Shown: piece by piece, positions 3,567 to 19,686 of the stretch
Layout of the letters: every line of letters begins with the position of its first letter
Numbering within the stretch: position 1 is the stretch's first letter
Assembly: GCA_937928685.1 (NCBI GenBank)
Contig: CALGJU010000177.1
Location: forward strand, 1 to 38,544
DNA length: 38,544 bases
Source of the DNA: an uncultured Granulosicoccaceae bacterium
Lineage (GTDB): Bacteria; Pseudomonadota; Gammaproteobacteria; Granulosicoccales; Granulosicoccaceae
Direction of reading: 5' to 3'
Translations under genes and position numbers: made by a program
The notes under the pieces: model-generated
Database searches by the model: none
What the model was told of the DNA's origin: nothing
The model's input: only the letters and a program-made list of their open reading frames with translations

Positions 3567-3568
3567 CG

Positions 3569-4078: not shown

Positions 4079-4350
4079 GTATGCAGGTGGGCGGTACAAG
4101 TTGTGATTGATTTCTGATGTCTGTCCGAGGCTTCTGTGGCGGGTAGAAGAGGCAACGGTCGCAAGCCATTATATTGATAGGCCTTCAAAGCCCCGTCAAT
4201 TCGCCCACGAGCTGCTATAAATAAGCGTTATTAACGTTATTCTCCTAGCTTAAAAGTGGTCTGAATATTGCTGGTGCGTCATTTTTGTGTGCGTCAAATT
4301 CTTTAGATCGATTGAAGTTAGGTCTCATTGTCGTTGGCGCATGCAGACTT
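4079..4350. other. Intergenic region before the type I secretion operon
   Basis: These 272 bases follow gluconokinase and precede the exporter gene. An AT-rich patch with TATAAATAAGCG and a TTATTAACGTTATT near-palindrome lies at about 4216-4242 and may hold the promoter. I see no stem-loop with a T-run after gluconokinase. The exporter frame is open back to a TTG at 4285, but no convincing ribosome site supports starting there. Confidence 0.3.
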
Positions 4351-6522
4351 ATGAAAGCGAAACCAGTAGATTTATTGCTTGAATGCCTACGTCATATTGC
4401 CCTGCGATATGATTGTAAGATCGAAAGTGAATCCATATTGTCCTCACTGCCTGTTGAGCCTGAGATGGGCATTACGCCTGCTTTGTTTCCACGGGTTGCC
4501 GCTCGGGCAGGATTTAAAACCGAGTTTGCAGATACTTCATTCGAGCTGCTTGAATCCCATGTTGGTCCGTCAATTGTGCTATTGCAGGGCAATCAGGTGG
4601 GTGTCATTTTCAAATACCCAAATGAGGCTGAGGCAGAATACTTTTTACTTGATGCTGATTCGAAGCTTAGATCAACCGATAAGGCATTATTGCGAAGGCA
4701 ATACGTCGGTTATGCATTTTCATTGACTCGTATCCAATCAGATCTGGAACTGAATACCCCGGCAGATATGGATATCGCTGCTAAGCGGCAGAAGTGGTTT
4801 TGGCTTACGCTCTGGAGATATCGCGCCTATTACCTACAAATACTTCCTGCTTCGTTGCTGATTAATCTGTTTGGTGTGGCGATGCCGTTTTTTGTCATGA
4901 TTGTGTATGACAAAGTGGTACCAAATCATGCTGTAGAAACTTTGTGGGTGTTGGCAATCGGCGTTTCTCTGGTTTTTGTCTTTGATCTGATAATCCGCTT
5001 AGTACGAGGGGCTTTACTTGAAAGAGCAGGCCGGGAAATGGACTTTGAACTCGCAGGTGTATTGTTTGAGCAAGTGCTGTCGTTGTCGATGCGATCAATG
5101 CCTACCTCCACGGGATTTCTTGCCAATCGTGTAAAAGCATACGAAACACTGCGTGAATTTTTTGTCTCTGCGGCGATGTTAGCGCTGGCTGATCTGCCAT
5201 TTTCTATATTGATGATTGGTGTGATCTTTTTTGTAGCAGGCCCGATCGGCTGGTTGTTGCTACTTGCGGTGTTGGTTGGTTTTTCGATAAATGTCGCTTT
5301 GCAAATACCGCTCTACAAATCGGTTAAAAATGCTACTGCGTCTGGCATTGAGCGTCAGTCTTTGGTGGGTGAGAGTATTGCTAGTCTTGAATCCATTAAG
5401 GCGAGTAACGCTGAAGGCTACTTGCTTAGACGAATGAATACGCTGTTAAGCACTTCGGCGGTCAGTGGGGTTAAATCGCACTGGTATGCGCTGGTCGGAA
5501 ATTCAGCGACCACCTCACTAGTTAATTTGACCTCAGTGGCAGTCATTGTCGCGGGGGTTTATCGTGTGAACGCCGGGCTTCTGTCTATGGGAGGGTTGAT
5601 AGCTACTGTGATGTTAACGAGCCGTTGCATGGCGCCGTTGGCTATGGTGTCCGGATTGATGACCCGACTGCAGCAAACCTTGCAATCGTTAGATTCACTC
5701 ACTGACGTAATGAAGATGGAGAGAGAAGTAGACCATAGGCGCGAATATTTGAACAATGAGTCATTTAGTCCAGATTTCCACTTTAACCAAGCTGTGCTTT
5801 CCTACCCTGAACACACAGCACCTGCGCTTGCAATTAAGAATTTGCATATTGGTGCTACGGAAAGTGTTGCCTTACTTGGAAAAATCGGCTGTGGCAAGAG
5901 TACACTTATAAAAGTGATGGCAGGCTTACTTCAGCCCACCAGTGGGACATTCTTAATAGACGGCATTGATGCCACTCAATACCATCCAGCGGTTCTAAGG
6001 GGGAAGCTTGGTTATGTGCCGCAAGATGCAGCCTTGTTTCACGGCACGCTACGTGACAATGTAAAACTCGGCTTTGCTGATGTGACCGACGATAAGATCA
6101 TGCAAGCTATAGTCGAGGTTGGACTTGCGGAATATGTTAATCGACACCCGCATGGACTGAATGCAGAGGTGGGTGAACGCGGTAGCTTGCTTTCCGGTGG
6201 TCAGCGGCGTGCAGTAGTGCTTGCACGTTGCCTGGTTCGAGAATATTCAGTGCTATTACTTGACGAGCCTACTGCTAATCTCGATCCGCAGACCGAACAG
6301 ACGATCATCAAAACACTTCGTGATCTAAAACAGAATAATAACGTGCAGCTGATTATTGCCACTCATAAGGCAGGTGTGCTCGATTTGGTTGATCGAGCAG
6401 TGGTGTTGGAGAATGGCCATGTTGTGGCAGATGGGCCACCAGCAAACGTACTTGGTCGACCAGCAGCTGTAAGGAAAAATGAGATAAAGGTCAGTAACAG
6501 CAGGAGTGCGGCAAGCGCATGA
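4351..6522 (+). CDS. Type I secretion ABC exporter (LapB/HlyB-like)
   Basis: Inner-membrane ATPase-permease, 723 aa from the ATG at 4351. Residues 1 to about 125 form a C39-like domain without an obvious catalytic Cys/His pair, as in LapB and HlyB where it only recognises substrate. A six-helix ABC transmembrane domain follows at roughly 145-430, then the nucleotide-binding domain: Walker A LGKIGCGKST near 510, signature LSGGQRR near 614, Walker B LLLDEP with D638/E639, and the switch histidine at 672. It overlaps the HlyD-like gene by 4 bases (ATGA). The outer-membrane TolC-type partner is not in the window. The likely cargo is a large protein without a Sec signal, and the one at 15082-19686 is the obvious candidate. 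The start is uncertain (TTG at 4285 possible). Confidence 0.88.
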   Translation: MKAKPVDLLLECLRHIALRYDCKIESESILSSLPVEPEMGITPALFPRVAARAGFKTEFADTSFELLESHVGPSIVLLQGNQVGVIFKYPNEAEAEYFLLDADSKLRSTDKALLRRQYVGYAFSLTRIQSDLELNTPADMDIAAKRQKWFWLTLWRYRAYYLQILPASLLINLFGVAMPFFVMIVYDKVVPNHAVETLWVLAIGVSLVFVFDLIIRLVRGALLERAGREMDFELAGVLFEQVLSLSMRSMPTSTGFLANRVKAYETLREFFVSAAMLALADLPFSILMIGVIFFVAGPIGWLLLLAVLVGFSINVALQIPLYKSVKNATASGIERQSLVGESIASLESIKASNAEGYLLRRMNTLLSTSAVSGVKSHWYALVGNSATTSLVNLTSVAVIVAGVYRVNAGLLSMGGLIATVMLTSRCMAPLAMVSGLMTRLQQTLQSLDSLTDVMKMEREVDHRREYLNNESFSPDFHFNQAVLSYPEHTAPALAIKNLHIGATESVALLGKIGCGKSTLIKVMAGLLQPTSGTFLIDGIDATQYHPAVLRGKLGYVPQDAALFHGTLRDNVKLGFADVTDDKIMQAIVEVGLAEYVNRHPHGLNAEVGERGSLLSGGQRRAVVLARCLVREYSVLLLDEPTANLDPQTEQTIIKTLRDLKQNNNVQLIIATHKAGVLDLVDRAVVLENGHVVADGPPANVLGRPAAVRKNEIKVSNSRSAASA

Positions 6523-7877
6523 ACGCCATTGATAAGAAACTAGCCGCTAAAACGAACGCTGATCAAAATAACACTGGCCAGAAGTCCCCTGAGAAGAAGC
6601 CTGCTACTACTCGCTCAGTACCAGACGTGAAAAAACCGGGTTGGGATCTGAGTGAACTGGAAAATATTGCTGCACAAAAGAGTGAATTGACTACCGCCAT
6701 TGCCGTTTCTGCGTTTGATTTACAGCAGCAGGGCGAGACATTGCAAAAGAAAGCGGTTCATATGAAGTCGCGATGGGTGCCGCTGATCTGTCTGCTATGT
6801 GTAGGTAGTTTGTTGTTTTGGGCGTGGCTTGCAAAGATAGATCAGGTAACGCGTGGACATGGCAAGGTTATTCCGAGCAGTAAGGTGCAGACCATTCAAA
6901 GTCTTGAAGATGGGATTGTTATCGGTTTGCCAGTCGGTGAGGGTGATATTGTAGAGAAGGGTCAAGCTGTTCTTCTTCTGGATGAAACCGTTGCACGAGC
7001 AAACTATTCAGAAGCAATTTCGCGCCGTGATCTGGTGCTCGCAAGAATGAGCCGGCTACAGGCGGAGGCAAATGGGTTTATTGACCCTGTTTATCCAGAC
7101 AATATCAAACCGGAAATAATCAGCGTTGAAAATGAATTGTTCAAAGCTCGTCGCGCTGACTATCAAGCCAGGAAGCGCAGTGCGGAGCAGATGCTTACAC
7201 ATGCCAATAACGAATTGGAGATATTTCGTCGCGGTCAAAAATCGATGACAAAACTCGATTTAATACAAGCCCAAAGAGATGTCTCGCTACTTGAAGGTAA
7301 CTTAAATACATTGGTGAGTGAAACCAGCAGGAATGCGCTGGATGCGCATGATGTACATCGTGCTGAGTTGGCCAGCCTCAATAGTTCCATTGCACGGCAT
7401 GAAGATGCATTGAAACGAAAGGTGTTGCGATCGCCGACACACGGCACAGTAAACAAGATTCATATTGCTGGTGAGGGTCGTGTGATACGTGGCGGTGAAG
7501 ATGTGATGGAAATTGTGCCGATCAATGATTCTCTTTTGGTTGAGGCTAACATCAGGCCTGAAGATGTCGGGTTCATTCACTCTAATCAAGCGGCTACAGT
7601 AAAGTTTACGGCTTACGATTACACTATCTATGGTGGTATAGAAGGGGTCGTAGAGTATATTGGGGTCGATACCATTGCTAATGAACAGGGTGAAATTTAC
7701 TACCCGATTAGAATAAGAACTGAATCAACCTCGATGGGCTCTAAGGATGGTCGTGAGCTAACGATCATACCTGGTATGGTGGCTGAAGTTGATATACTGG
7801 CAGGGCAGAAATCAGTGTTACAGTACTTACTTACGCCACTTAACCGTGCACGAGAAAGAGCGTTAACCGAACAATGA
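6519..7877 (+). CDS. Type I secretion membrane-fusion protein (HlyD/LapC-like)
   Basis: Periplasmic adaptor of 452 aa linking the ABC exporter to an outer-membrane channel. A hydrophilic, lysine-rich cytoplasmic N-terminus of about 85 residues precedes one membrane helix (VPLICLLCVGSLLFWAWLA, about 87-105). A biotinyl-lipoyl half-motif follows (GHGKVIPSSKVQTIQSLEDG), then a long coiled-coil hairpin (about 165-300), the second lipoyl half (LRSPTHGTVNKIHI) and a beta-barrel domain ending in a GMVAEVDILAG segment characteristic of HlyD secretion proteins. Its ATG overlaps the exporter stop, so the pair is translationally coupled. Confidence 0.9.
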   Translation: MNAIDKKLAAKTNADQNNTGQKSPEKKPATTRSVPDVKKPGWDLSELENIAAQKSELTTAIAVSAFDLQQQGETLQKKAVHMKSRWVPLICLLCVGSLLFWAWLAKIDQVTRGHGKVIPSSKVQTIQSLEDGIVIGLPVGEGDIVEKGQAVLLLDETVARANYSEAISRRDLVLARMSRLQAEANGFIDPVYPDNIKPEIISVENELFKARRADYQARKRSAEQMLTHANNELEIFRRGQKSMTKLDLIQAQRDVSLLEGNLNTLVSETSRNALDAHDVHRAELASLNSSIARHEDALKRKVLRSPTHGTVNKIHIAGEGRVIRGGEDVMEIVPINDSLLVEANIRPEDVGFIHSNQAATVKFTAYDYTIYGGIEGVVEYIGVDTIANEQGEIYYPIRIRTESTSMGSKDGRELTIIPGMVAEVDILAGQKSVLQYLLTPLNRARERALTEQ

Positions 7878-8180
7878 TGGCTTAGAGCAGCGATCAATTC
7901 TAAACTCAGGTAGTCGAAAGCGCCACAAGCAGTGAGTCTGGTTCTGGTTCGGATTCCAGCCTAACCATTTCCAATAGGGCATAATCTGGATTCCGGATTC
8001 CATGAACGAATCATCGTATTCTTATTCCACTAATAGGTTTGCTTCCAGGAATGATCGTTTTAAAAAGATAATCTAATTTGGCTGAGTAAGTCACAAAGGT
8101 GCGAAACTCATCGTTGATGCACTTATGAGGAAACAGGCCCTATAAAATGATACCCAGACTGGCTCCGGTGTGAAAATTAA
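7878..8180. other. Intergenic region, no clear feature
   Basis: These 303 bases separate the secretion operon from the acetyltransferase gene. I see short GGATTCC repeats (about 7950-8000) and an imperfect GATTC/GAATC dyad, but no T-tailed terminator, no convincing promoter and no coding frame with family signal. Confidence 0.3.
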
Positions 8181-8858
8181 ATGAACATGCAAGTGGTAAA
8201 TTCGATCGTATTATTTGGTGTGCGTACCCCCCTAATTGGCGACTATATTGAAACCTGCAACCGATTGAATCGGGTTGTTGTTGCTGCGGTTAAACTGGAC
8301 AGTCAGAGAGATCGTTTAACGGATAGGGAATATCTGGTAAGGCTTGAGGATGTAACGGATGAACATCGAAAATCACGTTTTATTGCAGCAGCCTTTTCGT
8401 CAAAGCGAAGGCAAGAGATTGTAACCTCCGCAATAGAGAACGGTTTCTCTATTGATGATGCGTTGATTGACCCGACGTCTGTCGTCGCATCTTCTTCGTC
8501 AATTGGCGTTGGGTCTTATATTAATGGAATGTCGATTGTTGCCTCTGGTTCCCGGATCGGGGAGCATGTGTTTATTAATCGAGCATGTAATGTAGGCCAT
8601 CATGTCATTGTCGGTGATTATGCTTCTATTGGCCCCGGTGTATCGATAGCCAGTAGCGTGACAATTGGTGAAGGCGCGGGTGTTGGAATCGGTGCTACTT
8701 TGTTGCCTGGAGTAAAGGTCGGGGAGGGCGCCATTGTTTCAGCAGCTACTTGTTTGAATATTGATGTTCCGCCGAATTGTCTGGCTGTAGGGAATCCTCC
8801 CGTCATTAAGTCACTAAATCAGAACAAGAGAGCCATGGATTACTCTGATCAGGAGTAG
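8181..8858 (+). CDS. Hexapeptide-repeat acetyltransferase, NeuD/PglD-like
   Basis: 225 aa. The first 90 residues look like the small Rossmann-like sugar-binding domain of NeuD/PglD enzymes, although the usual nucleotide loop is weak. From about residue 95 the sequence follows the isoleucine-patch left-handed beta-helix pattern (SSSIGVGSYINGMSIV, GEHVFINRACNVGHHVIVGDYASIGPG). The histidine pair in NVGHHV marks the probable acetyl-CoA active site. Such enzymes O- or N-acetylate sugars for surface glycans, using acetyl-CoA. It ends 24 bases from the MBOAT gene, which is convergent, so it belongs to the same surface neighbourhood but not to the same transcript. An ATG 6 bases downstream is an alternative start. 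Confidence 0.78.
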   Translation: MNMQVVNSIVLFGVRTPLIGDYIETCNRLNRVVVAAVKLDSQRDRLTDREYLVRLEDVTDEHRKSRFIAAAFSSKRRQEIVTSAIENGFSIDDALIDPTSVVASSSSIGVGSYINGMSIVASGSRIGEHVFINRACNVGHHVIVGDYASIGPGVSIASSVTIGEGAGVGIGATLLPGVKVGEGAIVSAATCLNIDVPPNCLAVGNPPVIKSLNQNKRAMDYSDQE

Positions 8859-8882
8859 CGGGTTAGGGGGTATCGTGTTGGA

Positions 8883-10112
8883 TCAAATGAGAAACAAGCA
8901 TTTTGCTAATATCATCAAAGCGTTTTTTACATCGGTAATCGAACCATCACGGTAGGTTGCTGTGAATGCGAAGCTCCCTGCCATCCAGCTATTGGTAAAT
9001 ATTATTGCAACCAATTTTTTAACTAAATGAGGTTTCGCTGAAAAACGCCGTCTAAGCTTTGTACGCGACCAAGTGACGAATGCAATCACTCCAATGCCCT
9101 GATACAAGCCCCAGGCTACCCAACTGGGTGTTCCTCCGTGCCAGAGTCCAATAGCAAGAAAGGTAAGTAAAATTGCGAAATACGGGTTTCGTGTCAGCCC
9201 GATGGTCGGCATGTAAACATAGGCCTGGCACCAACTGCCCAGGGATATATGCCAGCGTTTCCAGAGCATTGAAATGTTTGTCGCTAGAAATGGCCAATTG
9301 AAATTCTCTGCAATTTTAAACCCCAGGAGCCTTGAGGAACCAATCGCAATATCGCTGTAGGCACTAAAATCCAAATAGATTATAAGGTAGCTTATTAAAA
9401 GAAATGCTATTACCTTATAGTGTGAAATTAGCTCTATGTTGGTGAGAATGGTGTCACCAGTATGAGAATTTAATAAGTGTGTCAACACAATGTCAGAAAT
9501 AAGGAATTTTTTAATTAAGCCATAAATAATTCGGGTGGTCCCCTCAACGAAATCGCGTCTCCTGTTTTCTGGTTGCCAGTGTTTTTGAAAGTGATCAAAC
9601 CGCTCAATTGGCCCCGCTGTATAGATGGGAAATAAGAAGATGTAATTAAAAAACTGGAAGAAGGTATGGGGTGCTAATCGTCCTCGATGGTTCTCAACAA
9701 GGTAGTGAATAAGTTTAAACGAAAAGTAACTGACCCCAAGGGGAATTAATGTTTCTCCAGTGAGTGGCTTTCCAGCGATGGTCAGGATGATTTCGGGCAC
9801 ATATTTGTGATAGACAAGATAGCCAATCACTATAAGAATTAAAATTGTTGTTGTGTGCCTGCCCGAAGCGTTTTTTCGTTTCTGACGAAGCGGTAAATAG
9901 TAGGCTGCAGCAGTTATAGCGATTAGGTAAAGGATAACGCCATATTTAGTTGGTAGTGATTCTCCGTTTGCGGGATTTACGCAATATAAGAGTAAAAAAA
10001 GAAAGCAGAGTGACAATAAACTGAAGAATGGAAAACGGTACTTATCCGCTATGATAAATGATGCTGTAAGGCCTGCAGCAAGGTAGAGCCAGTAATAGAT
10101 TTCAGTGATCAA
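8883..10112 (-). CDS. MBOAT-family membrane O-acyltransferase (DltB-like)
   Basis: Polytopic inner-membrane acyltransferase, 409 aa, close to DltB in length and shorter than AlgI. Family motifs are GPIERFDHF near 167-175, WKRWHISLGSW with H288, and IGLWHGG with H325, the expected catalytic histidine. About ten membrane helices can be drawn. DltB takes an aminoacyl group from a carrier protein on the cytoplasmic side and passes it outward. This gene is the last of a six-gene operon that also has a carrier protein, ligase, microprotein and SGNH protein, which argues for a DltB-type role rather than AlgI-type acetylation. The start is a TTG at 10112: no ATG or GTG lies upstream in frame after the previous in-frame stop, and the ribosome site is weak. 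Confidence 0.88.
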   Translation of the reverse strand: MITEIYYWLYLAAGLTASFIIADKYRFPFFSLLSLCFLFLLLYCVNPANGESLPTKYGVILYLIAITAAAYYLPLRQKRKNASGRHTTTILILIVIGYLVYHKYVPEIILTIAGKPLTGETLIPLGVSYFSFKLIHYLVENHRGRLAPHTFFQFFNYIFLFPIYTAGPIERFDHFQKHWQPENRRRDFVEGTTRIIYGLIKKFLISDIVLTHLLNSHTGDTILTNIELISHYKVIAFLLISYLIIYLDFSAYSDIAIGSSRLLGFKIAENFNWPFLATNISMLWKRWHISLGSWCQAYVYMPTIGLTRNPYFAILLTFLAIGLWHGGTPSWVAWGLYQGIGVIAFVTWSRTKLRRRFSAKPHLVKKLVAIIFTNSWMAGSFAFTATYRDGSITDVKNALMILAKCLFLI

Positions 10113-10152
10113 GCGTTTATCAGTCTGTGAGTTGAAGGTTTCTCGTTCGTGC

Positions 10153-10284
10153 TCAGAAGCCTTGATAGCGGAATACTGCGGTACCGGTTGATGTAAGAAA
10201 GAGGCTGACTAGTGCAAAAGTAAATAATATTCCTAGAATAATCCCTCTAATACACTGCGAGAGTCTTGTGATTTTATTACGCAT
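10153..10284 (-). CDS. DltX-like single-pass membrane microprotein
   Basis: 43 aa, found by reading the gap between the SGNH and MBOAT genes. A basic N-terminus (MRNKITRLSQ) precedes one membrane helix at about 14-31, and the protein ends exactly at FRYQGF. DltX proteins of Gram-positive bacteria have the same build, a short single-pass protein ending in an F-x-Y-x-x-F motif. The C-terminal tyrosine (Y40 here) is thought to carry the D-alanyl group between DltB and DltD. The ATG lies 1 base after the TAA of the SGNH gene and the stop is 40 bases before the MBOAT start, so it is placed for coupled translation. The assignment rests on architecture, motif and context; I could not run a search. 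Confidence 0.82.
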   Translation of the reverse strand: MRNKITRLSQCIRGIILGILFTFALVSLFLTSTGTAVFRYQGF

Positions 10285-10285
10285 T

Positions 10286-11368
10286 TTACTGATGATCCGT
10301 AGCTTGGATAATTTTTGAGTCCATAATCAATCTAGCGAGGTGGGAGGTGTAGGAAGACGACGTCGGACTTTTTCTGACGTGAACAAGATCGTAAAAATCG
10401 GCGGAATTGTATGGAAAATAGTGTGAAGGGTTATGGTACGTAACATTGTATTTTTCGGTGAACTCGATGATAAGATTTTCGTATGCTGTTATAAATTCCT
10501 TCCCGACATGTGAGCTTAAAAAATCGGGGCTTAGTGGTTTTTCAATGAAAGTGATCTTTAATTCGGGCTTACTTTCTACAATATTAATTGTAGTGCTCAA
10601 GGCTTTTAGTCCTGTATCGATAAAAGTGCGATATTTTTTATAGGGTAGAGAAAGTTCAAGCGAGTACGTGTTCTTTAGTGCGTTCAGTTCTTCGGTCGAT
10701 TTTTTTGCTGCGTACATCTTAAGGTGTACAGATCTTTCAGTTCTTCTCTGGTCGTTGGAAAACCAGTAATTAATAAATCGTGGTAATAAAAACCTGAAAT
10801 TGTCGATGCCGTAGACACCGGTTGTGCGGTTGCTCCGGTGACCGATACTATCGAGAAAATTCATGAGGGCTTCAGACGTGTAGCCTCGTCGGTTTCCATA
10901 TGAAGCACTGTCAAGCATTTTTGAATTTATGATAAAGCTTTTGGCGGATATGCCTAGCACGACGAGCCCGGTCGAATTATCGGGAAGATTGTCTATGATA
11001 GCCAATGACTCCAATAGAGATTGACCTCCACCGCGAAGATCGACAATGCGAGCATCAAAATTGTTTCGTTTTAATTCATCTGTAAGCAGATTTACTCTGA
11101 CTATCTCGCGAAGTGCGCTATCACCAATCAGATAGATCGATTCCAGTGGTGCTGTTTCGGCTTTTAGTTGGAGGACGGTTGAAGTAATAAATATATCATC
11201 GTCTCTTTCATCTGTGGCGAGAAGTGAGGCATTCTCAATGATGTTGGTTGGATCGGAAAAGCTAAAATAGAAGCAACACAAGACTATGCTTGTTAATACG
11301 GCTACTACAAGAGATAGCTCAGAGGGTTTTACTAACCCATCAATAAAAGCTTTTGACTTTGATCGCAT
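10286..11368 (-). CDS. Membrane-anchored SGNH-like protein (DltD/AlgJ-like role)
   Basis: 360 aa from the ATG at 11368 (a GTG two codons upstream is possible). One N-terminal membrane helix at about 19-37 anchors a periplasmic domain. The SGNH nucleophile motif is IGDSAL with S84, a second glycine block is LRGGGQS, and the C-terminal acid/base pair is DLVH (D327, H330). The canonical block III GxND is replaced by LGISAK, so the oxyanion Asn is not evident, as in some DltD-like and AlgJ-like proteins. In Dlt pathways the equivalent protein transfers the acyl group from the membrane carrier to the surface polymer. Position between the ligase and microprotein genes supports that role; overall similarity to DltD itself looks low. 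Confidence 0.75.
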   Translation of the reverse strand: MRSKSKAFIDGLVKPSELSLVVAVLTSIVLCCFYFSFSDPTNIIENASLLATDERDDDIFITSTVLQLKAETAPLESIYLIGDSALREIVRVNLLTDELKRNNFDARIVDLRGGGQSLLESLAIIDNLPDNSTGLVVLGISAKSFIINSKMLDSASYGNRRGYTSEALMNFLDSIGHRSNRTTGVYGIDNFRFLLPRFINYWFSNDQRRTERSVHLKMYAAKKSTEELNALKNTYSLELSLPYKKYRTFIDTGLKALSTTINIVESKPELKITFIEKPLSPDFLSSHVGKEFITAYENLIIEFTEKYNVTYHNPSHYFPYNSADFYDLVHVRKSPTSSSYTSHLARLIMDSKIIQATDHQ

Positions 11369-11400
11369 TTTCACTGGTTAGAACTATTTACTCGAACAGG

Positions 11401-12936
11401 TTACCTGTTATGGCTTTGAAATACTTGCTTGGACAATGCTTGATAGTCTATTTTTCCGTTGGGGGTGCGGGGTAGTTTATCGAGCAGAAAGAATTTTCGT
11501 GGCTGCATGTAGGGTCCTAGTAAAGTAGGAACAATTCGTTGAAGTTCCTTAATAATTTCTGGCACACCGGGTTTTGGGACAACCACAGCAACAATCATAT
11601 CGCCTATGATTTCATGCGGAGTTGATATAATTCCAATATCTTCGATGGTAGGAATATTAAGCATTATCCGTTCGATCTCTTCCGGGTTCACTTTAACCCC
11701 CATGGATTTGAGTTGCCTGTCGCGTCTTCCGGAAAGGTATAGCATTCCCTGGTCATTCAGATAGCCAAAGTCACCGGTGTAGACCGCCAGAGCCGCATTC
11801 GATTTCTCATTGTTCCATACAGGAGTTGGTTTTAACACTTTTTCGGTTGCCTGTATGTCTCCCCAGTAGCCCTGGAATACACCGGTGCCATAATGAACGA
11901 TTTCCCCGATCTCCCCGGCTTTTGCTCTGCTACCGTGTTCGGTGATCACGCTGAGTGTCACGCCAGGTATTGCGTAGCCTACAGAGTCCGGGTTTTGCTT
12001 CGCCATTGATGTGGGAAGGGTAGATGTTCTATATGTTTCCGTTAATCCATAGTTGAAGGAGAATTCACTGGTGCTGAAAAAACGGAAAAGTTCTTCCCTG
12101 ATTCCAATGGGTAGGGTGGATCCCGTGTTAGTTACCAGTCTAATGGATGAGCATTCAGTATCCTGTATTGGTGACACACCGCGAAACAGTGATGCGAACA
12201 AAGAGGGGACGCCAGCAAAAATAGTTGGTTGATTTACCTCAATTGATTTACAAATTCCAAATGGATCATTTGTCGATGGCAATATCTGGCATATACCCAG
12301 CAGAATGGTGCTGAGAAGCTGACCATATCCATAATCGAATGACCAGGGGATCGCACAGAGAATGGAGTCGGTGGGTTTGATATTAAGTGACTGTGCTACC
12401 GACTTGCAGGCGTTGATGAGAGTCGAGTGTGACTGCGCCACGCCTTTCGGGGTGCCCGTCGAACCAGACGTGAAAAGTATAGAGGCGGTGTTTTTAAAGC
12501 TGGTCGTAGATACATTACTATTTGCACAACATCGTTGTAGTAGCTGATTTTTTGTTGCGTAGAGTTCTTCCAGAGAAATTTGAATTGTCTCTTTTGCTAA
12601 CGCGTGCTGTTTGTTGGAGGAGGAGAATATTGCCAAGGTACAGTCGGTTCTTTCTGCAGCGATCCTGACGTGCGTTGGCGCTAATTGTTCATTGATAATA
12701 ACTGGTATAACGCCCAGGTAAAATAGACCAAGCAGTATTGATGCTGTATCAATTGAATTGGGAAGACAAATTAAGCATGTGTCGCCTTGTTGTATTCCGT
12801 ACTGCGACAGTAGTCGTGCAGCGTTGAGCGAGAGATTTCGAAGTTGTAGATAATTGATCTGCTGATCAAGGTAAATCAAAGCAGTTTTGTCGGGATAACG
12901 GTGAACTATCTGTTCGAATGTATCAAACACCCTCAC
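11401..12936 (-). CDS. AMP-forming amino acid/acyl ligase (DltA-like; exosortase-associated ligase type)
   Basis: Adenylate-forming enzyme, 511 aa, expected to activate a carboxylic or amino acid with ATP and load it on the phosphopantetheine of the neighbouring carrier protein. Motifs in order: P-loop-like LFTSGSTGTPKGV (about 153-165), FNYGLTETYRTSTLP, YTGDFG, GRRDRQLKSMGVKVNPEEIE and the catalytic lysine K495 in PRTPNGKIDY. The YGLTETYR-type A5 motif recalls the AMP ligases that accompany exosortase A loci (TIGR03098 family), which also travel with a PLP decarboxylase and a carrier protein; no exosortase is in this window. The GTG start at 12936 has AGGAGA 8 bases upstream. The substrate cannot be read from sequence. 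Confidence 0.85.
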   Translation of the reverse strand: MRVFDTFEQIVHRYPDKTALIYLDQQINYLQLRNLSLNAARLLSQYGIQQGDTCLICLPNSIDTASILLGLFYLGVIPVIINEQLAPTHVRIAAERTDCTLAIFSSSNKQHALAKETIQISLEELYATKNQLLQRCCANSNVSTTSFKNTASILFTSGSTGTPKGVAQSHSTLINACKSVAQSLNIKPTDSILCAIPWSFDYGYGQLLSTILLGICQILPSTNDPFGICKSIEVNQPTIFAGVPSLFASLFRGVSPIQDTECSSIRLVTNTGSTLPIGIREELFRFFSTSEFSFNYGLTETYRTSTLPTSMAKQNPDSVGYAIPGVTLSVITEHGSRAKAGEIGEIVHYGTGVFQGYWGDIQATEKVLKPTPVWNNEKSNAALAVYTGDFGYLNDQGMLYLSGRRDRQLKSMGVKVNPEEIERIMLNIPTIEDIGIISTPHEIIGDMIVAVVVPKPGVPEIIKELQRIVPTLLGPYMQPRKFFLLDKLPRTPNGKIDYQALSKQVFQSHNR

Positions 12937-12997
12937 TTATTGTTTCTCCTGTGTTTAGGCGTGTAGCTTGAAAGCTTTGAATATTCAAAATAAGCGC

Positions 12998-14254
12998 TTA
13001 GGAGAATTGTGATATGTCTGCAAGATTATTCTGAACGATCATGACCTCGCTTGGTATTGGATGACTTATGAAGTGTATTGGACTAGCGGTAAGGCCGTAG
13101 GCACCTGACATTGGTATCGCAAGTATATCTCCAATGTGGGTTTCTGGCAGCACAATGTGTTGTGCCAAAACATCGATTGAGGTACACAGGGGGCCAACCA
13201 ATGTGTATTTGTGTTCCTGTTCCTGTTCCTGTTGCTGTTGCTTAGTCTTACTTATGTTTTTAATTTTCCAGTTTCTTCGTATAACCGTACCCATTAGCCC
13301 ACACGCTGCAAGATGATTATTGAAGCCCGCATCACATAGGCGTATTTCACGATCCTGGGTACTCTTTGCACTTACGACACTGGTTAGGAGGACACCGCAT
13401 GGAGCGATAAGCCACCGACCAAGTTCCAGGGTGCATTGTGTAGACGCAAAGCAATCATTGGTTTTTAGCTGCTGAATGACATTTTTTATGCCTTCTGCAG
13501 CGCCTATAATATCTAGTTCTTCGTCGCCATGAAAATAGGGGACGCCAAAGCCGCTACCGAAAATGAGTTTCCTGGGATGTATATCTGCAATCGCCGCTGC
13601 GCCAGTGAATGAATCTGCCATGATATGAAAGTTTTCGATAATTGCATCAGCTGAAAGGCAGTTGCTTCCAGAATAGATGTGAAAACCTTCAAGCGACAGG
13701 CCTGGAAGCGAGATTATATGTTGAAGTTTTTCGGCAAGGGTACCCTCGTCGATGCCAAATTGACTTGATTTTCCAGTCATACTTGCACCGAATTGCTTCG
13801 GCGTTTTGGAGGGATTAATACGCAGAAGAATAGGCTGAGTCTGGTGTCTTTGTACGCAAATGCTACTCACCGTTTCGGCCTCGTGGGCTGATTCAATGAT
13901 AAGTTCACCAACGCCGAGCGCAACCGCTTTTTCCAGATCTCTGGGTTTTTTGGCAGGCCCGGAAAATGAAATGGATTGTGCAGATATTCCTGAGTAAACT
14001 GCTCGTTCTACTTCTCCTATGGATGACGCATCGAAATTCTCGATGATCTCTTGAAATGTTTTCAGAATGTGCTTATTTGGATTGGACTTTATCGCGAAGC
14101 TAAGGTCAAAGTGATCTCCAAAAACCGAAGTTAGGAAGTTTGTTCTGTCTCGCAGCATGGTATCGCTGTAGACATAACACGGAGTGTCAAAATTGCTTTT
14201 TATTGTCTCCTCAAATCTGGCAAGTTGTGCCCATGGGAAACTGCTTTGGATCAT
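12998..14254 (-). CDS. Fold type III PLP decarboxylase (BtrK/LysA-like)
   Basis: 418 aa with the alanine-racemase-type barrel of diaminopimelate and ornithine decarboxylases. K56 in FAIKSNPN binds PLP, H192 in FHIYSGS stacks on the ring, GSGFGVPY (233-240) and ELGR (277-280) hold the phosphate, and C357/D361 in CTSID form the substrate and proton-donor motif. The usual EPGR is ELGR here. Its ATG overlaps the carrier-protein stop by 4 bases, so the two products are made together. BtrK decarboxylates glutamate while it is bound to the carrier BtrI, and exosortase loci hold the same trio (TIGR03099 family), so a carrier-bound amino acid is the favoured substrate over free diaminopimelate. A Gln/Glu-rich insert occupies about 338-348. 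Confidence 0.85.
   Translation of the reverse strand: MIQSSFPWAQLARFEETIKSNFDTPCYVYSDTMLRDRTNFLTSVFGDHFDLSFAIKSNPNKHILKTFQEIIENFDASSIGEVERAVYSGISAQSISFSGPAKKPRDLEKAVALGVGELIIESAHEAETVSSICVQRHQTQPILLRINPSKTPKQFGASMTGKSSQFGIDEGTLAEKLQHIISLPGLSLEGFHIYSGSNCLSADAIIENFHIMADSFTGAAAIADIHPRKLIFGSGFGVPYFHGDEELDIIGAAEGIKNVIQQLKTNDCFASTQCTLELGRWLIAPCGVLLTSVVSAKSTQDREIRLCDAGFNNHLAACGLMGTVIRRNWKIKNISKTKQQQQEQEQEHKYTLVGPLCTSIDVLAQHIVLPETHIGDILAIPMSGAYGLTASPIHFISHPIPSEVMIVQNNLADISQFS
13213..13242. repeat. Hexanucleotide microsatellite inside the decarboxylase gene
   Basis: Five tandem 6-base units on the plus strand: GTTCCT three times, then GTTGCT twice. On the coding strand they give a Gln/Glu run (QQQQEQEQE) in a loop just before the catalytic cysteine motif. 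Units of six keep the frame, so copy-number change would alter loop length without knocking out the gene. Confidence 0.8.
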
Positions 14255-14487
14255 AGCTTGCTCTGGAGATAAGCCATTATTCTTTCGATAGTGTCGAAAT
14301 TTTCCAGATTTACTTCCGATGGGCTGACACGGATTCCGCCGTTATCTTCGATGAAGCTCATTAGGGCGACTAGCGAAAAACTGTCTACAATCCCGGAGCT
14401 AAAGAGCGTCGTGTCACGTGTCAGCGTAGCAACGTCTACATCCAACTCTTGGTCTAAAAAAACTCTTACTGATTCTTCTGAAATCAC
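14251..14487 (-). CDS. Acyl/peptidyl carrier protein (DltC-like)
   Basis: 78-residue, strongly acidic four-helix carrier protein. The phosphopantetheine attachment site is S36 in GIVDSFSL; the DSF variant replaces the more common DSL. It would carry the amino acid activated by the ligase at 11401-12936 and present it to the decarboxylase and then to the MBOAT protein. It is the first gene of the operon; its TGA overlaps the decarboxylase ATG. The start is a GTG at 14487 with an AGAAAGA stretch upstream. DltC and the BtrI-type and exosortase-associated carriers have the same size, and sequence alone does not separate them. Confidence 0.87.
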   Translation of the reverse strand: MISEESVRVFLDQELDVDVATLTRDTTLFSSGIVDSFSLVALMSFIEDNGGIRVSPSEVNLENFDTIERIMAYLQSKL

Positions 14488-15081
14488 TTCTGCGTCTTTC
14501 TGTTAATTAATTGACTAAGTAATGTTACCAGCGTCACCCGGAGACTCGTTCTGGTCAATGGGAAATAAATTTGTGTGCGTAACTTCTGCGTATCGGACCA
14601 CGCTTGGTCTGAGAATTATTGCAGCATAACAGAAGTTTGGAGCTTATTTAATCAGCCCGCAAAACCTTCCCGGCGTTTTCGATGCCGTGGTACTGCATTA
14701 GTTGATTACCAAAGCTTGAACACGGAACCAGAAGTTTGGCAGTCGAGTCAATTATGTGCCGAGTACAAGTTGGATAATTAGACCTGTCGGGGGGTAACTT
14801 GTTCAAAGGTATTAGTTCGGTTTGACCGGTTCAGTGAGCTGGAAAACAGATCAATCCGTAGATGGTCAACGAAATAGGAAAGGTGTTTTCACGTAACTTG
14901 TTGTATTGGTTGAAGTAAAAAGTTCGCTTGCGGTGACTGGTATGGCTGCTATGCAGCGTCTGGAACGCTATATGCGTTTCCATCGACGTAATACCGATCT
15001 TAGAAGCTACGCACCAACAATTGCTAGCACGTTAGTTATCCAGAATTCTGATAGTGAATATCAGTGGACGAGGGAATAAAA
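14488..15081. promoter_or_regulatory. 594-base divergent control region between carrier-protein operon and DUF11 gene
   Basis: No credible gene lies here; a 68-codon plus-strand frame at 14575-14781 has no recognisable family signal. It must hold promoters for the minus-strand Dlt-like operon and the plus-strand large gene. Visible structure includes two adjacent small dyads, GCTGC-TAT-GCAGC (about 14946-14958) and AACGC-TATAT-GCGTT (about 14964-14978), and a direct repeat CAGAAGTTTGG (about 14629 and 14730). I found no well-spaced sigma-70 boxes. The length suggests more than simple constitutive promoters. Confidence 0.45.
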
Positions 15082-18000
15082 ATGACCAGTAATGTGATTA
15101 CAGATCTGCGAATAAACAAATCGATTGACGACGATACACCGAAGCTTGGCGAAGAAGTGACGTGGACAATCCAAGTTGCGAATGACAGTAGTGGCAATGC
15201 TGAGAATGTAGTCGTGTCAGACCTGCTACCAGAAGGAATGAGCTATGTTTCGAGTCAGGTTTCGACCGGTTCAATCGACGTGGCGAATGGTGTCTGGTCA
15301 TTAGGCGGGGTAGGTGCCGGCTCAGATGCGACTGCAACAATCACTATGGTGGTGACAGATGGGAACTATCACATCACCAACAACGCGACGGTGAGCTCTG
15401 ACACGCACGACTGCAATCCTTCAAACGACACCAATTCTGTCACGGTAGTGCCATGGATACCTACACGTGCTGATCTGTCGCTTGTGAAGACAGTGAGTGA
15501 TCCGGAGCCTGAAGTCGGCTCGACTGTCGAATGGAAAGTCATAGTATCCAATTCAGGACCTGATACGGCATGGGACACAGTAGTAAAGGACACGCTGCCT
15601 GAAGGCGTTACTTTTGTGGGTGCCAGGGCCACGAGCGGTAGCTATGATTTTGCCACCGGTGAGTGGGATGTCGGAGATCTGGCCAATGGAGCCAGTGCTG
15701 AGATCGTAATTAGCACCAGCATAGATACCGGAGCGGCAGCCGAATACGTAAACACTGCGGTTGCTACAAGTCTCACCTATGACAACAACGAGACGAACAA
15801 TACAGGTGAAGCGACTATTGTTGTAACTGATAACGCCGGTGGTGAAGAGGGTGGCCATGAAGGGCATGAGTGCTATGTATCGTGTTGTTGTGCCTGCGAT
15901 CACCAGGAAGTTACTGGTGCAGATTTACAGATTGTAAAGCTTGTTGATAACCCTACACCTAATCTTAACGGAGAGGTGGTTTGGTCGTTGTTGGTAGTCA
16001 ACAACGGACCGGAAGACGCTGTAAATGTAGTCGTTAACGACAACCTTCCAGCTGGAGTTGAATATGTTTCCGATACCGGCATGGGGCAATTTGATCCAGC
16101 TGCCGGGGCATGGGAAATAGGTGATTTGGCCAATGGCGCAAGTGCACTTTTACAAATAACAACTATTGCTACTGACGCGGCTGTAGCACAGGTAAATATC
16201 GCGATGGTTAGCAGCGATACCGAGGACTCTAATCCCGCTAATGATGTTGCGCATGCCAGTATCGACGCGGTAAATGCGGACCTGTCTATCGTAAAGACGG
16301 TTGATAATGAGGCGCCCGACTTAGGCTCGGAGGTGGTGTGGACTATTGATGTTATCAACAATGGGCCTGATGCTGCAGAGAACGTTATCATTGACGATGT
16401 TTTGCCAGATGACACAACTTTTGTCCGTGTGAGTGATGATCTGTTTGATGATGTTGCTGGCACTATAGCAATTGGCACGCTCGCACCTGGCGAAGAGTTC
16501 AGTTTTGATGTCACGGTAACAGTCGATAGTGCTGATGGACCTAGGACTAACTTAGCGAGTGTTACCAGTACCACCTACGATGATGATCAAACAAACAACA
16601 GTGATACCGCAGTGGTTGACGCCGTGGCCGCCGACCTGGAGTTGGTCAAGGGTGTTCTACCAGAGACAGCGGCACCGGGAGATTCAGTTGAGTGGACTAT
16701 CACGGTAAGTAACCAGGGGCCCGATGAGGCGACCGGGATTCAAGTGCAGGATGTGCTGCCAGTTGGCGTTCAGTACGAGAGTGATTCTGCCGGCGGGAGT
16801 GTGCCTCTCGTGTCATTTCTTGGCGACAGTTGGATGGCAGCTGATTTTCTGCCAGGTGCAGTCGTTGAGCCCATTCTTGAATCGATTCGGGTGGCCCAGG
16901 GTGATGTGACTTACACTAACTTATCTATTAGCGGGCACACCGCTGAAGAAATGCTTATAGAGACCGTCTGGCAGGAAGAGTACGCAGTCACCAATCCTGA
17001 TACTGTTTTTCTGGATTTCGGTGTTAATGAGTTTAACGAAGGTATTGCTCCAGAAAGTTATGGTGCCAGTTTAGCGAATCTGTTTGACGCCATTGCTGCT
17101 GTATCGCCTGCTTCTGAAATAGTGTTTCTAATACCGGCGGAGACTGCTCCGGATCTTCCCGCTTATCAGTGGAGTGAGTACGTTGATGCAGCATTGGTTG
17201 CCACCGAAGCTGCGGGTGTGCAGGTGATTAATCTTGGAGATTCTATCGCGCCATATGAGTCTGGTTCGGCACTGTGGTATGACTCTCTGCACATTAGTGT
17301 AGATGCCGCTGCGGATGTGTTCGATGCAGTGAGTGATGGATATGTTTTTCCCGACGGTGACTTTAACGCGGCGTCCGGAGTATGGAATGTGGGAGACCTT
17401 GCTGCAGGTGACTCTGCGTCACTGGTCATCCAAGCGTTGGTAACTGATACAGGTGCTCTGACGAATGTGGCAGAAATAATAGCATCAGATCAGGTTGATC
17501 CGGATTCAACAGTTGACAATGATGATGGTGATCAGTCTGAGGATGATGAGGACAATGCGTTGCTTACCGTGCCAGAGATTATTGATCTTGAGTTGACGCA
17601 GACAATTAGTAATACGACCCCCGATATTGGTGAAGATGTTACCTTTACCATTACTGTGACAAACACCAGCACGGTACCTGCCACAGGCGTAAGTGTTCTT
17701 AGTCAACTACCTGATTACTTTACCAGCGGCGATCTGATTTTTACTGGATCAAGTGATTCGGGTGTCGCTGCAGACCCGACCTCGGATTGGCTTGTTGGAG
17801 ACCTCGCGCCAGGTGAAACAGTAACACTGACTGTCGAGGCGACGGCTAATACCGCTGGCGAAATCATTAATGTGGCGGAAGTAGCTACTGCTGATCAAGA
17901 CGATGTTGATTCCATCCCTGCAAACGATGTGGAAGCGGAGGATGACCAACAATCGGTTTCATTGACTGTCCCTGAAATTATTGATCTTGAGCTGACGCAG

Positions 18001-19686
18001 GAAATAAGTAGTGAAACACCTGACGTTGGTGACACTGTCACGTATACAATCACTGTGACTAACGCCAGCGCTATACCAGCCACTGGTGTCATCGTGGCGA
18101 CTCAGTTGCCAGCTCATTTTGAGGCTGGAGTGTTGTCCTTAGTTGATTCGAGTGATGCCGGGTTTGCTGCAGCTCCTGAGTCCGGCTGGATTATCGGTGA
18201 TGTCGGTCCTGGGGAGACTGTTGTACTTACGGTCGACGCTGCAGTTGAAGCGCCGGGTACAATCGTTAACATAGCGCAGGTATCTGCAGCTGATCAGGAC
18301 GACGTCGACTCGACGCCTGCCAATGACGATGCGACAGAGGACGATCAGGAGTCTGTCACTTTTACCGCAGTTGATCCAAACCCAGTACCTACTGCAGTCA
18401 ACGAAACATTCGCCATAACATCTAACCCTGAAGCGCTGAATGCGGTGATTATGGTTGATCACTCGGGTAGCATGGGGAGCCTTAACGGGCCGGATCAGAG
18501 TGGCTCTCCGTATGCCGGACTCGATACGGACGGTGATGGGCGTGGAGATGCTGATATTATTGGTCTTGACGGTCTGCCGACTTCAAGACTTGAACTTGTT
18601 CGTGAAGCAGTAGTTGATTTTGCTGGTAAGGAGCAAGTAGGTGCAATAAAGATTCTTGGCTTTGATGGCAACGCAGGGGGCGCAGGTAACGTTTCGACCT
18701 GGTACGATGTTTCCGGTTCGCAGCCAGTCACCAGTGGTGTGCAAGCATTTGTTGATGGATTCGTTGCGAGTGGCTTTACAAACTATGGGGATGCACTTAA
18801 GGCTTCGCAAGACTATTTTGAAGCCGATGTGAATGATGCGCCCGATCCACTTCCGAGTACAGCACCGGTAAATTACTACTTTTTAACCGATGGTAACCCG
18901 CTTTCTGGCGATGGATCTAATCCTTTGCCAAATGGTGCGGAGCAAACGGCGTGGGAAAGTTTTGTAGACGCAAATTACAACGAAGCATACGGCATCGGAT
19001 TTGGAGCAGGAGTGACAGACTTTGCATCGATCGATCTAGTTTCACATCCGGATGATGCTGACGAAGTGGGGGCACAGACAGCTGAAGAAAATACGATCTT
19101 TGCCAGCATGGCGGACCAGATACCCGCTGAGCTTTATCGAACCATTGCTGAAAGTGTTACTGGCAATGTAACCGAGAATGATATTCCCGGTGATGACGGG
19201 CCAGCGATAAGCGCTTCAGCGGTTTCATCACTTGCCGTAGGCGATACGGTGTATGTGTACGATGGAACCAGTGTGGCAGTGAGTGGTGGGTCAGCCCCTG
19301 CTACTACAGTCTTGCGATCTGATAATATCAACACTCCGGTATCTTCCGGGGGGCGATTAGAGTTTAATTTTGCGGATGGTAGTTTTGAATACTTTGCACC
19401 TTTCACGGAGGTAGCATTTACCGAAATGTTCGAATACTCGATCGCTGACGGGTCTGGTGATATTGATACCGGCACACTCACCATTGATGTAGCACCTGGA
19501 ACGCCAATGCAGCCAGCCTTAGCAGAGCCAGCTGATTCGTTGGTAGTAGATAATGATGAACTGTTCTCAGCTGAGTCCATTGCAACCGTGCAGGTGTCCG
19601 CTGAAGAATCCAACGATCTTGAATGGTCTGGCGGCAGTTCGTTGTATGGTTCGGAGCTTTACGACACCATGTCACTCGTGATCTAA
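15082..19686 (+). CDS. Large T1SS-type secreted protein: DUF11 repeats, embedded SGNH hydrolase, vWA domain
   Basis: 1,534 aa from the ATG at 15082, which has GAGG 8 bases upstream; a GTG at 15064 is less likely. There is no Sec signal peptide, consistent with type I export. Numbering below is from the GTG (subtract 6). Seven DUF11 repeats begin near 18, 136, 286, 405, 523, 840 and 973. The fifth is split by an SGNH-hydrolase domain (about 580-763) with FLGDSW (S589), GVNE (N655) and DSLH (D740, H743). A Cys/His-rich linker (270-280) separates repeats 2 and 3. A vWA domain starts near 1127 with the MIDAS motif DHSGS (D1132) and a DTDGDG-type calcium loop near 1154. A cadherin/VCBS-like module follows at about 1370-1480. 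No RTX nonapeptide array is seen. Likely an adhesin or surface enzyme. Confidence 0.85.
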   Translation: MTSNVITDLRINKSIDDDTPKLGEEVTWTIQVANDSSGNAENVVVSDLLPEGMSYVSSQVSTGSIDVANGVWSLGGVGAGSDATATITMVVTDGNYHITNNATVSSDTHDCNPSNDTNSVTVVPWIPTRADLSLVKTVSDPEPEVGSTVEWKVIVSNSGPDTAWDTVVKDTLPEGVTFVGARATSGSYDFATGEWDVGDLANGASAEIVISTSIDTGAAAEYVNTAVATSLTYDNNETNNTGEATIVVTDNAGGEEGGHEGHECYVSCCCACDHQEVTGADLQIVKLVDNPTPNLNGEVVWSLLVVNNGPEDAVNVVVNDNLPAGVEYVSDTGMGQFDPAAGAWEIGDLANGASALLQITTIATDAAVAQVNIAMVSSDTEDSNPANDVAHASIDAVNADLSIVKTVDNEAPDLGSEVVWTIDVINNGPDAAENVIIDDVLPDDTTFVRVSDDLFDDVAGTIAIGTLAPGEEFSFDVTVTVDSADGPRTNLASVTSTTYDDDQTNNSDTAVVDAVAADLELVKGVLPETAAPGDSVEWTITVSNQGPDEATGIQVQDVLPVGVQYESDSAGGSVPLVSFLGDSWMAADFLPGAVVEPILESIRVAQGDVTYTNLSISGHTAEEMLIETVWQEEYAVTNPDTVFLDFGVNEFNEGIAPESYGASLANLFDAIAAVSPASEIVFLIPAETAPDLPAYQWSEYVDAALVATEAAGVQVINLGDSIAPYESGSALWYDSLHISVDAAADVFDAVSDGYVFPDGDFNAASGVWNVGDLAAGDSASLVIQALVTDTGALTNVAEIIASDQVDPDSTVDNDDGDQSEDDEDNALLTVPEIIDLELTQTISNTTPDIGEDVTFTITVTNTSTVPATGVSVLSQLPDYFTSGDLIFTGSSDSGVAADPTSDWLVGDLAPGETVTLTVEATANTAGEIINVAEVATADQDDVDSIPANDVEAEDDQQSVSLTVPEIIDLELTQEISSETPDVGDTVTYTITVTNASAIPATGVIVATQLPAHFEAGVLSLVDSSDAGFAAAPESGWIIGDVGPGETVVLTVDAAVEAPGTIVNIAQVSAADQDDVDSTPANDDATEDDQESVTFTAVDPNPVPTAVNETFAITSNPEALNAVIMVDHSGSMGSLNGPDQSGSPYAGLDTDGDGRGDADIIGLDGLPTSRLELVREAVVDFAGKEQVGAIKILGFDGNAGGAGNVSTWYDVSGSQPVTSGVQAFVDGFVASGFTNYGDALKASQDYFEADVNDAPDPLPSTAPVNYYFLTDGNPLSGDGSNPLPNGAEQTAWESFVDANYNEAYGIGFGAGVTDFASIDLVSHPDDADEVGAQTAEENTIFASMADQIPAELYRTIAESVTGNVTENDIPGDDGPAISASAVSSLAVGDTVYVYDGTSVAVSGGSAPATTVLRSDNINTPVSSGGRLEFNFADGSFEYFAPFTEVAFTEMFEYSIADGSGDIDTGTLTIDVAPGTPMQPALAEPADSLVVDNDELFSAESIATVQVSAEESNDLEWSGGSSLYGSELYDTMSLVI

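Follow-up and report, generated by a model that had tools for sequence, protein, structure and literature searches.

The closest described relatives of the gene set considered here are of two kinds: the Dlt proteins (DltA, DltB, DltC, DltD, and DltX), which D-alanylate teichoic acids, and enzyme trios that process amino acids on carrier proteins. FXYXXF is described as a motif for acyl shuttling, found in DltX and at the C-termini of PatA-like MBOAT proteins (PMC12148441), and dltBAC and dltD genes have been described in a Gram-negative, Dickeya, with an unknown substrate (PMC3544676). On the trio side, BtrK decarboxylates glutamyl-BtrI, i.e., a carrier-bound substrate (PMC7857480), and VinO too is described as acting on a carrier thioester (PMC11284099). 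The Asp/Arg pair of VinN-type ligases is reported for aspartate and 3-methylaspartate enzymes (PMC7756342; PMC12186527); one ligase of this type, AfcQ, activates L-aspartate, with its authors arguing for the side-chain carboxyl (PMC12186527). Here we describe a locus that joins parts of both kinds. It lies in a 38,544-nt stretch (the window) of an uncultured Granulosicoccaceae bacterium (contig CALGJU010000177.1 of assembly GCA_937928685.1), and its six genes probably encode a system of Dlt type for transmembrane aminoacylation, in which decarboxylation on the carrier is an added step.

The genes occupy positions 8883-14487 of the minus strand, as six complete open reading frames (ORFs) with five junctions and no gap larger than 61 nt. 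They encode an acyl carrier protein (ACP; 14251..14487, in DltC-like position) with its attachment serine in a DSF motif (VDSFSL); a BtrK-like fold-III pyridoxal phosphate (PLP) decarboxylase (12998..14254); a VinN-type AMP-forming ligase (11401..12936); an SGNH-type protein, predicted to be membrane-anchored and to have a DltD/PatB-like role (10286..11374); a DltX-like membrane microprotein of 43 residues (10153..10284), whose C-terminal FRYQGF (codons 10156..10173, minus strand) is an FXYXXF shuttle motif with a predicted acyl-accepting tyrosine; and a DltB-like MBOAT transferase without such a motif fused to its C-terminus (8883..10112). The carrier and decarboxylase genes overlap by 4 nt, and the gaps after the decarboxylase, ligase, SGNH, and microprotein genes are 61, 26, 1, and 40 nt, respectively. 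Pfam and NCBIfam identify the carrier, ligase, decarboxylase, and MBOAT protein. Predicted promoters and terminators are at the level of shuffled sequence within its spread (16 vs. 15.4, and 8 vs. 6.6), so the operon status of the run rests on spacing and conservation. In 2-kb windows, G+C content is 0.41-0.45 at about 8000-15000, vs. about 0.45-0.51 across the rest of the window; with the patchy distribution described below, this may reflect horizontal gain of the region.

The full set, in identical order, is found in the window, in a genome of the same genus (G011), in one of another family (G286), and in one of another class of Pseudomonadota (G499), with proteins 20-61% identical to those of the window (45-61% in G011, 20-52% in G286). 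Recurrence of the whole arrangement in these three other genomes is more than chance would give, and the decarboxylases, ligases, and MBOAT proteins of the four sets form one clade per protein (support 99/91, 99/98, and 99/97). An earlier note on this DNA had proposed a run of six genes of these types, and had named, among outcomes that would refute its reading, that trio and membrane genes might not occur together elsewhere; the complete ORFs and family matches bear out the first, and in G011, G286, and G499 the two groups do stand together. The decarboxylase-ligase interval differs among the sets: it holds no gene in the window, an IS200-like transposase in G011, and a sulfotransferase gene in both G499 (L116:7970-8899, matching PF13469) and G286 (L102, about 2870-3821), the latter two 35% identical to each other.

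These sets emerged from several searches, whose genome samples overlap. Among 95 relatives, 38 genomes match the decarboxylase at E 1e-30, with G011 conspicuous at 57% identity and alone among eight inspected neighborhoods in having the relay. In the class (369 genomes), the decarboxylase profile matches 46 and the MBOAT profile 56, with 8 in common; judging the tables by eye, the two matches lie ≤15 kb apart only in the window and G286, and the 44 other genomes with a decarboxylase match have no MBOAT match within that distance. A search of 398 phylum genomes put 12 over the decarboxylase threshold; among the 11 non-window neighborhoods inspected, G499 has the full set and the remaining ten lack relay genes (G597 has one chance-level match to the SGNH query). 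No new set came from searches of the order (48 genomes: the window, G011, and a trio-type match in G042), the family and order of G286 (20 genomes each: G286 only), the class of G499 (48 genomes: G499 again, with three already-inspected matches), or the class of G676 (385 genomes: two loci of trio type, one of them on a contig of 5.6 kb). A scan of genome contigs returned two loci, MDLA01000081.1 and a 27% relative, without extending the six-gene set, and plasmids gave no match to the G499 MBOAT protein at E up to 1e-40. With the MBOAT protein as query against 245 phylum genomes, 83 match at E 1e-40; the window and G499 score above 600 bits, followed by G458 at 387 (beyond the window and G499, the loci of G458, G448, and G461 were inspected). 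When this protein alone is the query, G286 and G499 are its closest relatives outside the genus, so the six-gene link is independent of decarboxylase-based searching.

The carrier protein matches PP-binding (Pfam, 30 bits), and its best NCBIfam model is that of DltC (PRK05087, 37 bits; cut-off 68). It is 61 and 48% identical to the carriers of G011 and G286; that of G499 is 52% identical to the G286 protein. The DSF/DSL attachment serine is in place in the aligned carriers. The decarboxylase matches Orn_Arg_deC_N (94 bits) and Orn_DAP_Arg_deC (65 bits) in Pfam, as well as TIGR03099 (333 bits; cut-off 478). Its best match in the PDB is BtrK (2j66/7ru7, 233 bits, with the next at 159), which precedes diaminopimelate decarboxylases; it thus appears to be BtrK-like and, by analogy with its relatives, would act on a carrier-bound substrate. 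In a 50-row tree, the clade of the four MBOAT-linked decarboxylases joins those of six trio-only loci (two Paracoccus, Neorhizobium, G676, G587, and G814) at 100/100, and together they stand apart from the decarboxylases of the class search; three long branches were flagged, G814 among them. A role in lysine biosynthesis was rejected, since the genome has a second fold-III decarboxylase (contig 83, 26% identical), which groups at 100/100 with a protein that we take to be LysA.

The ligase matches AMP-binding (214 bits) and AMP-binding_C (56 bits) in Pfam, and scores 337 bits against TIGR03098 (cut-off 592) vs. 150-165 bits against DltA models. In the PDB, 3wvn is highest among chains of single-ligase length (multi-domain synthetases are higher in summed score), and for the fragment around the specificity residues 3wv4 and 3wvn, which we take to be VinN, rank first. 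Chain positions Asp246, Ser315, and Arg347 in this alignment are the published VinN Asp230, Ser299, and Arg331 plus 16 each; the window ligase has Asp201 and Arg303 at the Asp230 and Arg331 positions, with Thr271 replacing Ser299. Both Asp and Arg are conserved in all 20 aligned ligases from decarboxylase loci (4 sets and 16 others, counting the best ligase per locus and excluding G085 and G814 as truncated); no ligase was found at the decarboxylase loci of G446 and G682. The only DltA aligned, from E. casseliflavus, keeps the Asp and lacks the Arg; with Arg303 in place, the window ligase does not match a DltA-type pocket. In a 24-row ligase tree (one row of which, labeled G458, turned out not to be a ligase), the branching order within the set clade is that of the decarboxylase tree. 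The Asp201/Arg303 pair points to activation of the side chain of aspartate, which makes a beta-alanyl group the likeliest cargo, on balance the one to be expected.

The same machinery might instead carry gamma-aminobutyrate (GABA), made from glutamate loaded through its gamma-carboxyl as in butirosin synthesis. This second-choice cargo, suggested by analogy, draws on the decarboxylase, whose best structural relative, BtrK, is a glutamyl-BtrI decarboxylase. The ligase argues the other way, its Asp/Arg pair being of the kind reported for aspartate and 3-methylaspartate enzymes, and BtrJ is an ATP-grasp enzyme; GABA is therefore unlikely, though a serious second candidate. The earlier note had likened the trio to BtrI/J/K and to exosortase A loci; the trio as such is indeed a known type, but VinN/VinL/VinO and the proposed BolO/BolC/BolN are better analogs of it than the butirosin proteins, BtrJ being a ligase of the ATP-grasp kind.

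The membrane genes point to a relay of Dlt type. The MBOAT protein (Pfam, 90 bits) ends in KCLFLI, and its sole NCBIfam match at E up to 0.01 is DltB (TIGR04091, residues 6-381, 165 bits, with a cut-off of 375; the G286 and G499 proteins score 158 and 180). In the PDB it matches only DltB (8jem and 6bug) at E up to 0.001, in a library from which an AlgI-type structure is possibly absent. Its His288 and His325 are invariant in six homologs. The microprotein has no family match over cut-off in Pfam or NCBIfam; its C-terminus is FRYQGF in the window and G011, FRYQNF in G286, and FRYAGF in G499, and that of E. casseliflavus DltX is FIYNEF. Loci were assigned for 30 of the 68 class-search MBOAT matches: 25 of the 30 proteins end in a fused FXYXXF, two (window and G286) lack it and have a separate microprotein adjacent, and three have neither within a short stretch, with two of these (G076 and G401) having a separate microprotein farther away. 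In a 39-row tree, the clade of the four set proteins, together with L046 and L047 (99/96), lies outside the clade of all 26 fused-motif proteins (99/98). It is also separate from five Bacillota DltB (100/100), and a joint grouping with them is not rejected (p-AU, from the approximately unbiased test, 0.309). AlgI-type acetylation was rejected on two counts, the lack of a fused motif and the position outside the fused-motif clade. A grouping of the MBOAT protein with AlgI-type enzymes, which the earlier note named as a refuting outcome, is thus not seen. The DltB-only match and the separate motif-bearing microprotein agree with the note's correspondence of five genes by type to Dlt, with one correction: in this tree the four MBOAT proteins form a clade of their own apart from that of the Bacillota DltB.

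Neither a Pfam hit nor any family match over cut-off was obtained for the SGNH protein. Gly84, Ser86 (in a GDS motif), Asp329, and His332 are invariant in four homologs, the other three being 45, 20, and 20% identical to that of the window. A structural model (mean predicted local distance difference test score, pLDDT, 58) has an N-terminal helix at residues 19-40. Searched with Foldseek, it retrieves GDSL/SGNH esterases at probability up to 1.00 and an E-value of 0.015 at best; the match with the lowest E-value (0.005, at probability 0.35) is a different kind of protein, and none reaches E 0.001. Searching PDB sequences with the SGNH pair gave no match at E up to 1. The identity assigned here rests on the four invariant catalytic residues and this low-confidence model.

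By comparison with relatives of each protein, the system would work as follows. The ligase would take a dicarboxylic amino acid (most likely L-aspartate; L-glutamate or 3-methylaspartate are less likely), adenylate it at its side-chain carboxyl, and load it onto the carrier, as isoaspartyl-ACP in the case of aspartate. The decarboxylase would then strip off the alpha-carboxyl, giving beta-alanyl-ACP (or GABA-ACP) with a terminal amine. The DltB-like protein would carry the acyl group from the carrier across the membrane to the tyrosine of the FRYQGF tail, from which the SGNH serine would receive it and esterify a hydroxyl of a polymer in the periplasm or at the surface, which would thereby gain positive charge. 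With the amine in beta or gamma position, an aminoacyl ester is expected to resist mild base better than its alpha counterpart, which could explain the added decarboxylation step. The same route, a decarboxylated aminoacyl group made on the carrier and exported through the MBOAT protein, was predicted in the earlier note; six-gene conservation, residues, and clades all favor it, with the substrate, each chemical step, the acceptor, and the physiological role suggested by relatives.

The genes around the operon may bear on its last step. A gene pair for type I secretion, encoding an ABC transporter and an HlyD-family protein, lies at 4285-7877, and a gene for a 1540-residue DUF11-repeat protein, with an embedded GDSL-lipase-like domain at residues 585-745, at 15064-19686. 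Between the secretion pair and the operon is a plus-strand gene, convergent with it, for a NeuD-family hexapeptide acyltransferase (8181..8858; TIGR03570, 122 bits, cut-off 161). In G011, a 53% identical NeuD-like gene and 60-63% identical ABC/HlyD genes adjoin the operon, and the secretion genes are followed by the beginning of a similar large protein (L040). The stretches covered in G286 and G499 hold no match for NeuD, HlyD, or the large protein, and just a weak ABC-ATPase match (27%) in G499, so these neighbors are not core to the system. The secretion pair and the large protein do suggest that, rather than a surface glycan, the acceptor might be a lipid, a secreted protein, or some small molecule, which would change the last step only. 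Against this stand the lack of these neighbors in the covered stretches of G286 and G499, the glycosyltransferase and carbohydrate-esterase-like genes at two related trio loci, and the known MBOAT-SGNH pairs, which are described as acting on envelope polymers (PMC12148441). A non-glycan acceptor has a minor share of the probability, about that of a GABA cargo.

Less likely still, at a small fraction of the total, is that the omega-aminoacyl product of the trio finds its use in the cytoplasm, where the neighboring NeuD-like enzyme, for instance, might transfer it to a sugar nucleotide, and that the relay exports something else. Trio loci without a relay match were found in G676, G587, P. ferrooxidans, P. 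aminophilus, Neorhizobium, and G814; the G814 contig (5.6 kb) is too short to exclude a relay, L033 and L034 are also short contigs, and single matches to the MBOAT or SGNH query in L035, L038, and L122 (E 0.034-0.040, 34-45 residues) are at chance level and were not counted. On the two Paracoccus plasmids (L134 and L135), the trio is accompanied by a hexapeptide-type acyltransferase, a GT61 glycosyltransferase, and a CE2/GDSL esterase, and the trio there perhaps serves glycan modification in the cytoplasm. The NeuD-like gene, which in both the window and G011 flanks the operon, would fit such a use; it is, however, outside the gene run and was not found in the stretches covered in G286 and G499, and the MBOAT-linked decarboxylases and ligases form clades of their own.

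Other loci share the relay. Those of G076, G401, and G458 (L145, L146, and L167) encode a DltB-like MBOAT protein, a microprotein ending in FRYAGF or FRYAAF, a match to the SGNH query, and a carrier, as well as a 504-511-residue protein with an FMN_red domain; no decarboxylase match is found in these stretches. An AMP ligase was recognized in two of the three (G076 and G401), without the Asp of the specificity pair. Set beside the six-gene set, they suggest a chassis with exchangeable loading enzymes. It is about an even call whether Pseudomonadota have a modular surface-acylation platform of MBOAT protein, FRY(Q/A)(G/N/A)F microprotein, SGNH protein, and carrier, in a beta-alanyl/GABA version and an FMN-reductase-domain version; if so, Gram-negative cells would be decorated with esters other than those of D-alanine, amine-bearing or of another kind. 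Further short MBOAT proteins occur in G448 and G461 (L168 and L169), one with two AMP-ligase-like genes and the other with a separate microprotein ending in FIYVSF and no carrier match. On a Ligilactobacillus plasmid (L141), a DltB gene immediately adjoins a bactofencin-type bacteriocin gene.

A plain Gram-negative Dlt system moving D-alanine or another alpha-amino acid, with the decarboxylase serving elsewhere, has very little probability left: Dlt-type genes are known from Dickeya (PMC3544676), DltB is the sole NCBIfam match of the MBOAT protein, the set ligases adjoin DltA in the tree (on long branches), and the next-nearest MBOAT loci (G076, G401, and G458) lack the decarboxylase, but the three nearest (window, G286, and G499) all have it, its gene overlaps that of the carrier in the window, G011, and G286, and the ligase has an Arg absent from the DltA aligned and a far higher score against TIGR03098 than against DltA models.

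Several points weigh against the system preferred here, Dlt-type export of an aminoacyl group decarboxylated on its carrier. The carrier, ligase, decarboxylase, and MBOAT protein are all under the cut-off of their own best NCBIfam models, and the SGNH assignment is weak beyond the catalytic residues. The set ligases adjoin DltA and two ligases from FMN-type loci (91/96) rather than other trio ligases, a join flagged as a possible long-branch error. BtrK has a glutamyl carrier as substrate, and the corresponding product would be GABA. The set is rare, occurring in 2 of 369 class and 2 of 398 phylum genomes, with the window counted in each. A three-sequence AlphaFold2 model of the MBOAT protein had a mean pLDDT of 39.5 and was not used; no acceptor polymer was identified; and we know of no product, mutant, or enzyme assay.

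If this system operates as proposed, the Dlt relay is limited neither to D-alanine nor to teichoic acids, and would be a general route across membranes for acyl groups held on a carrier. Gram-negative bacteria would have a new class of surface decoration in omega-amino acids (beta-alanine, for instance), and there would be a hint at the use of the ligase/carrier/decarboxylase trios of exosortase A loci, whose purpose is, to our knowledge, unsettled. The residues involved (Asp201 and Arg303 of the ligase, the microprotein tyrosine, and Ser86 of the SGNH protein) make the chemistry directly testable.

Among known systems, the Dlt pathway shares with the set a carrier, an AMP ligase, an MBOAT protein without a fused motif, a separate microprotein ending in FXYXXF, and an SGNH-type protein. 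The set differs in its added fold-III decarboxylase, the VinN-type Arg of its ligase, its occurrence in Pseudomonadota, its scores below the Dlt equivalog cut-offs, and an MBOAT protein that does not fall among the five Bacillota DltB in the tree; because it fails those cut-offs and lacks a DltA-type pocket, it is not filed here as a member of Dlt. The Dickeya genes are similar in being of Dlt type, in a Gram-negative, with an unknown acceptor, but the available account mentions no decarboxylase (PMC3544676). The vicenistatin trio VinN/VinL/VinO and the proposed bolagladin trio BolO/BolC/BolN have the Asp/Arg ligase, the stand-alone carrier, and a PLP decarboxylase for carrier-bound substrates; they supply polyketide or peptide assembly lines, and the available accounts mention no relay of MBOAT protein, microprotein, and SGNH protein (PMC11284099; PMC7756342). 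PatA/PatB and AlgI-type acetylation systems also pair an MBOAT with an SGNH protein and use an acyl-Tyr shuttle motif, but they are described as having this motif fused to the MBOAT protein and an acyl-CoA donor (PMC12148441), where the set has a microprotein and a carrier. The ligase and decarboxylase associated with exosortase A (TIGR03098 and TIGR03099) are related enzymes with the same specificity pair, taking the ligases of the class search to be of this type; the set is below both cut-offs, and the decarboxylases fall in different clades. The titles and abstract openings returned by literature searches describe no MBOAT/SGNH system with a PLP decarboxylase, in line with the earlier note's impression that this exact gene set had not been described, and neither the combination nor the predicted cargo appears in them. 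The parts, then, all have known relatives; their combination and predicted cargo seem to be new, in a system that would be Dlt-like in its working.

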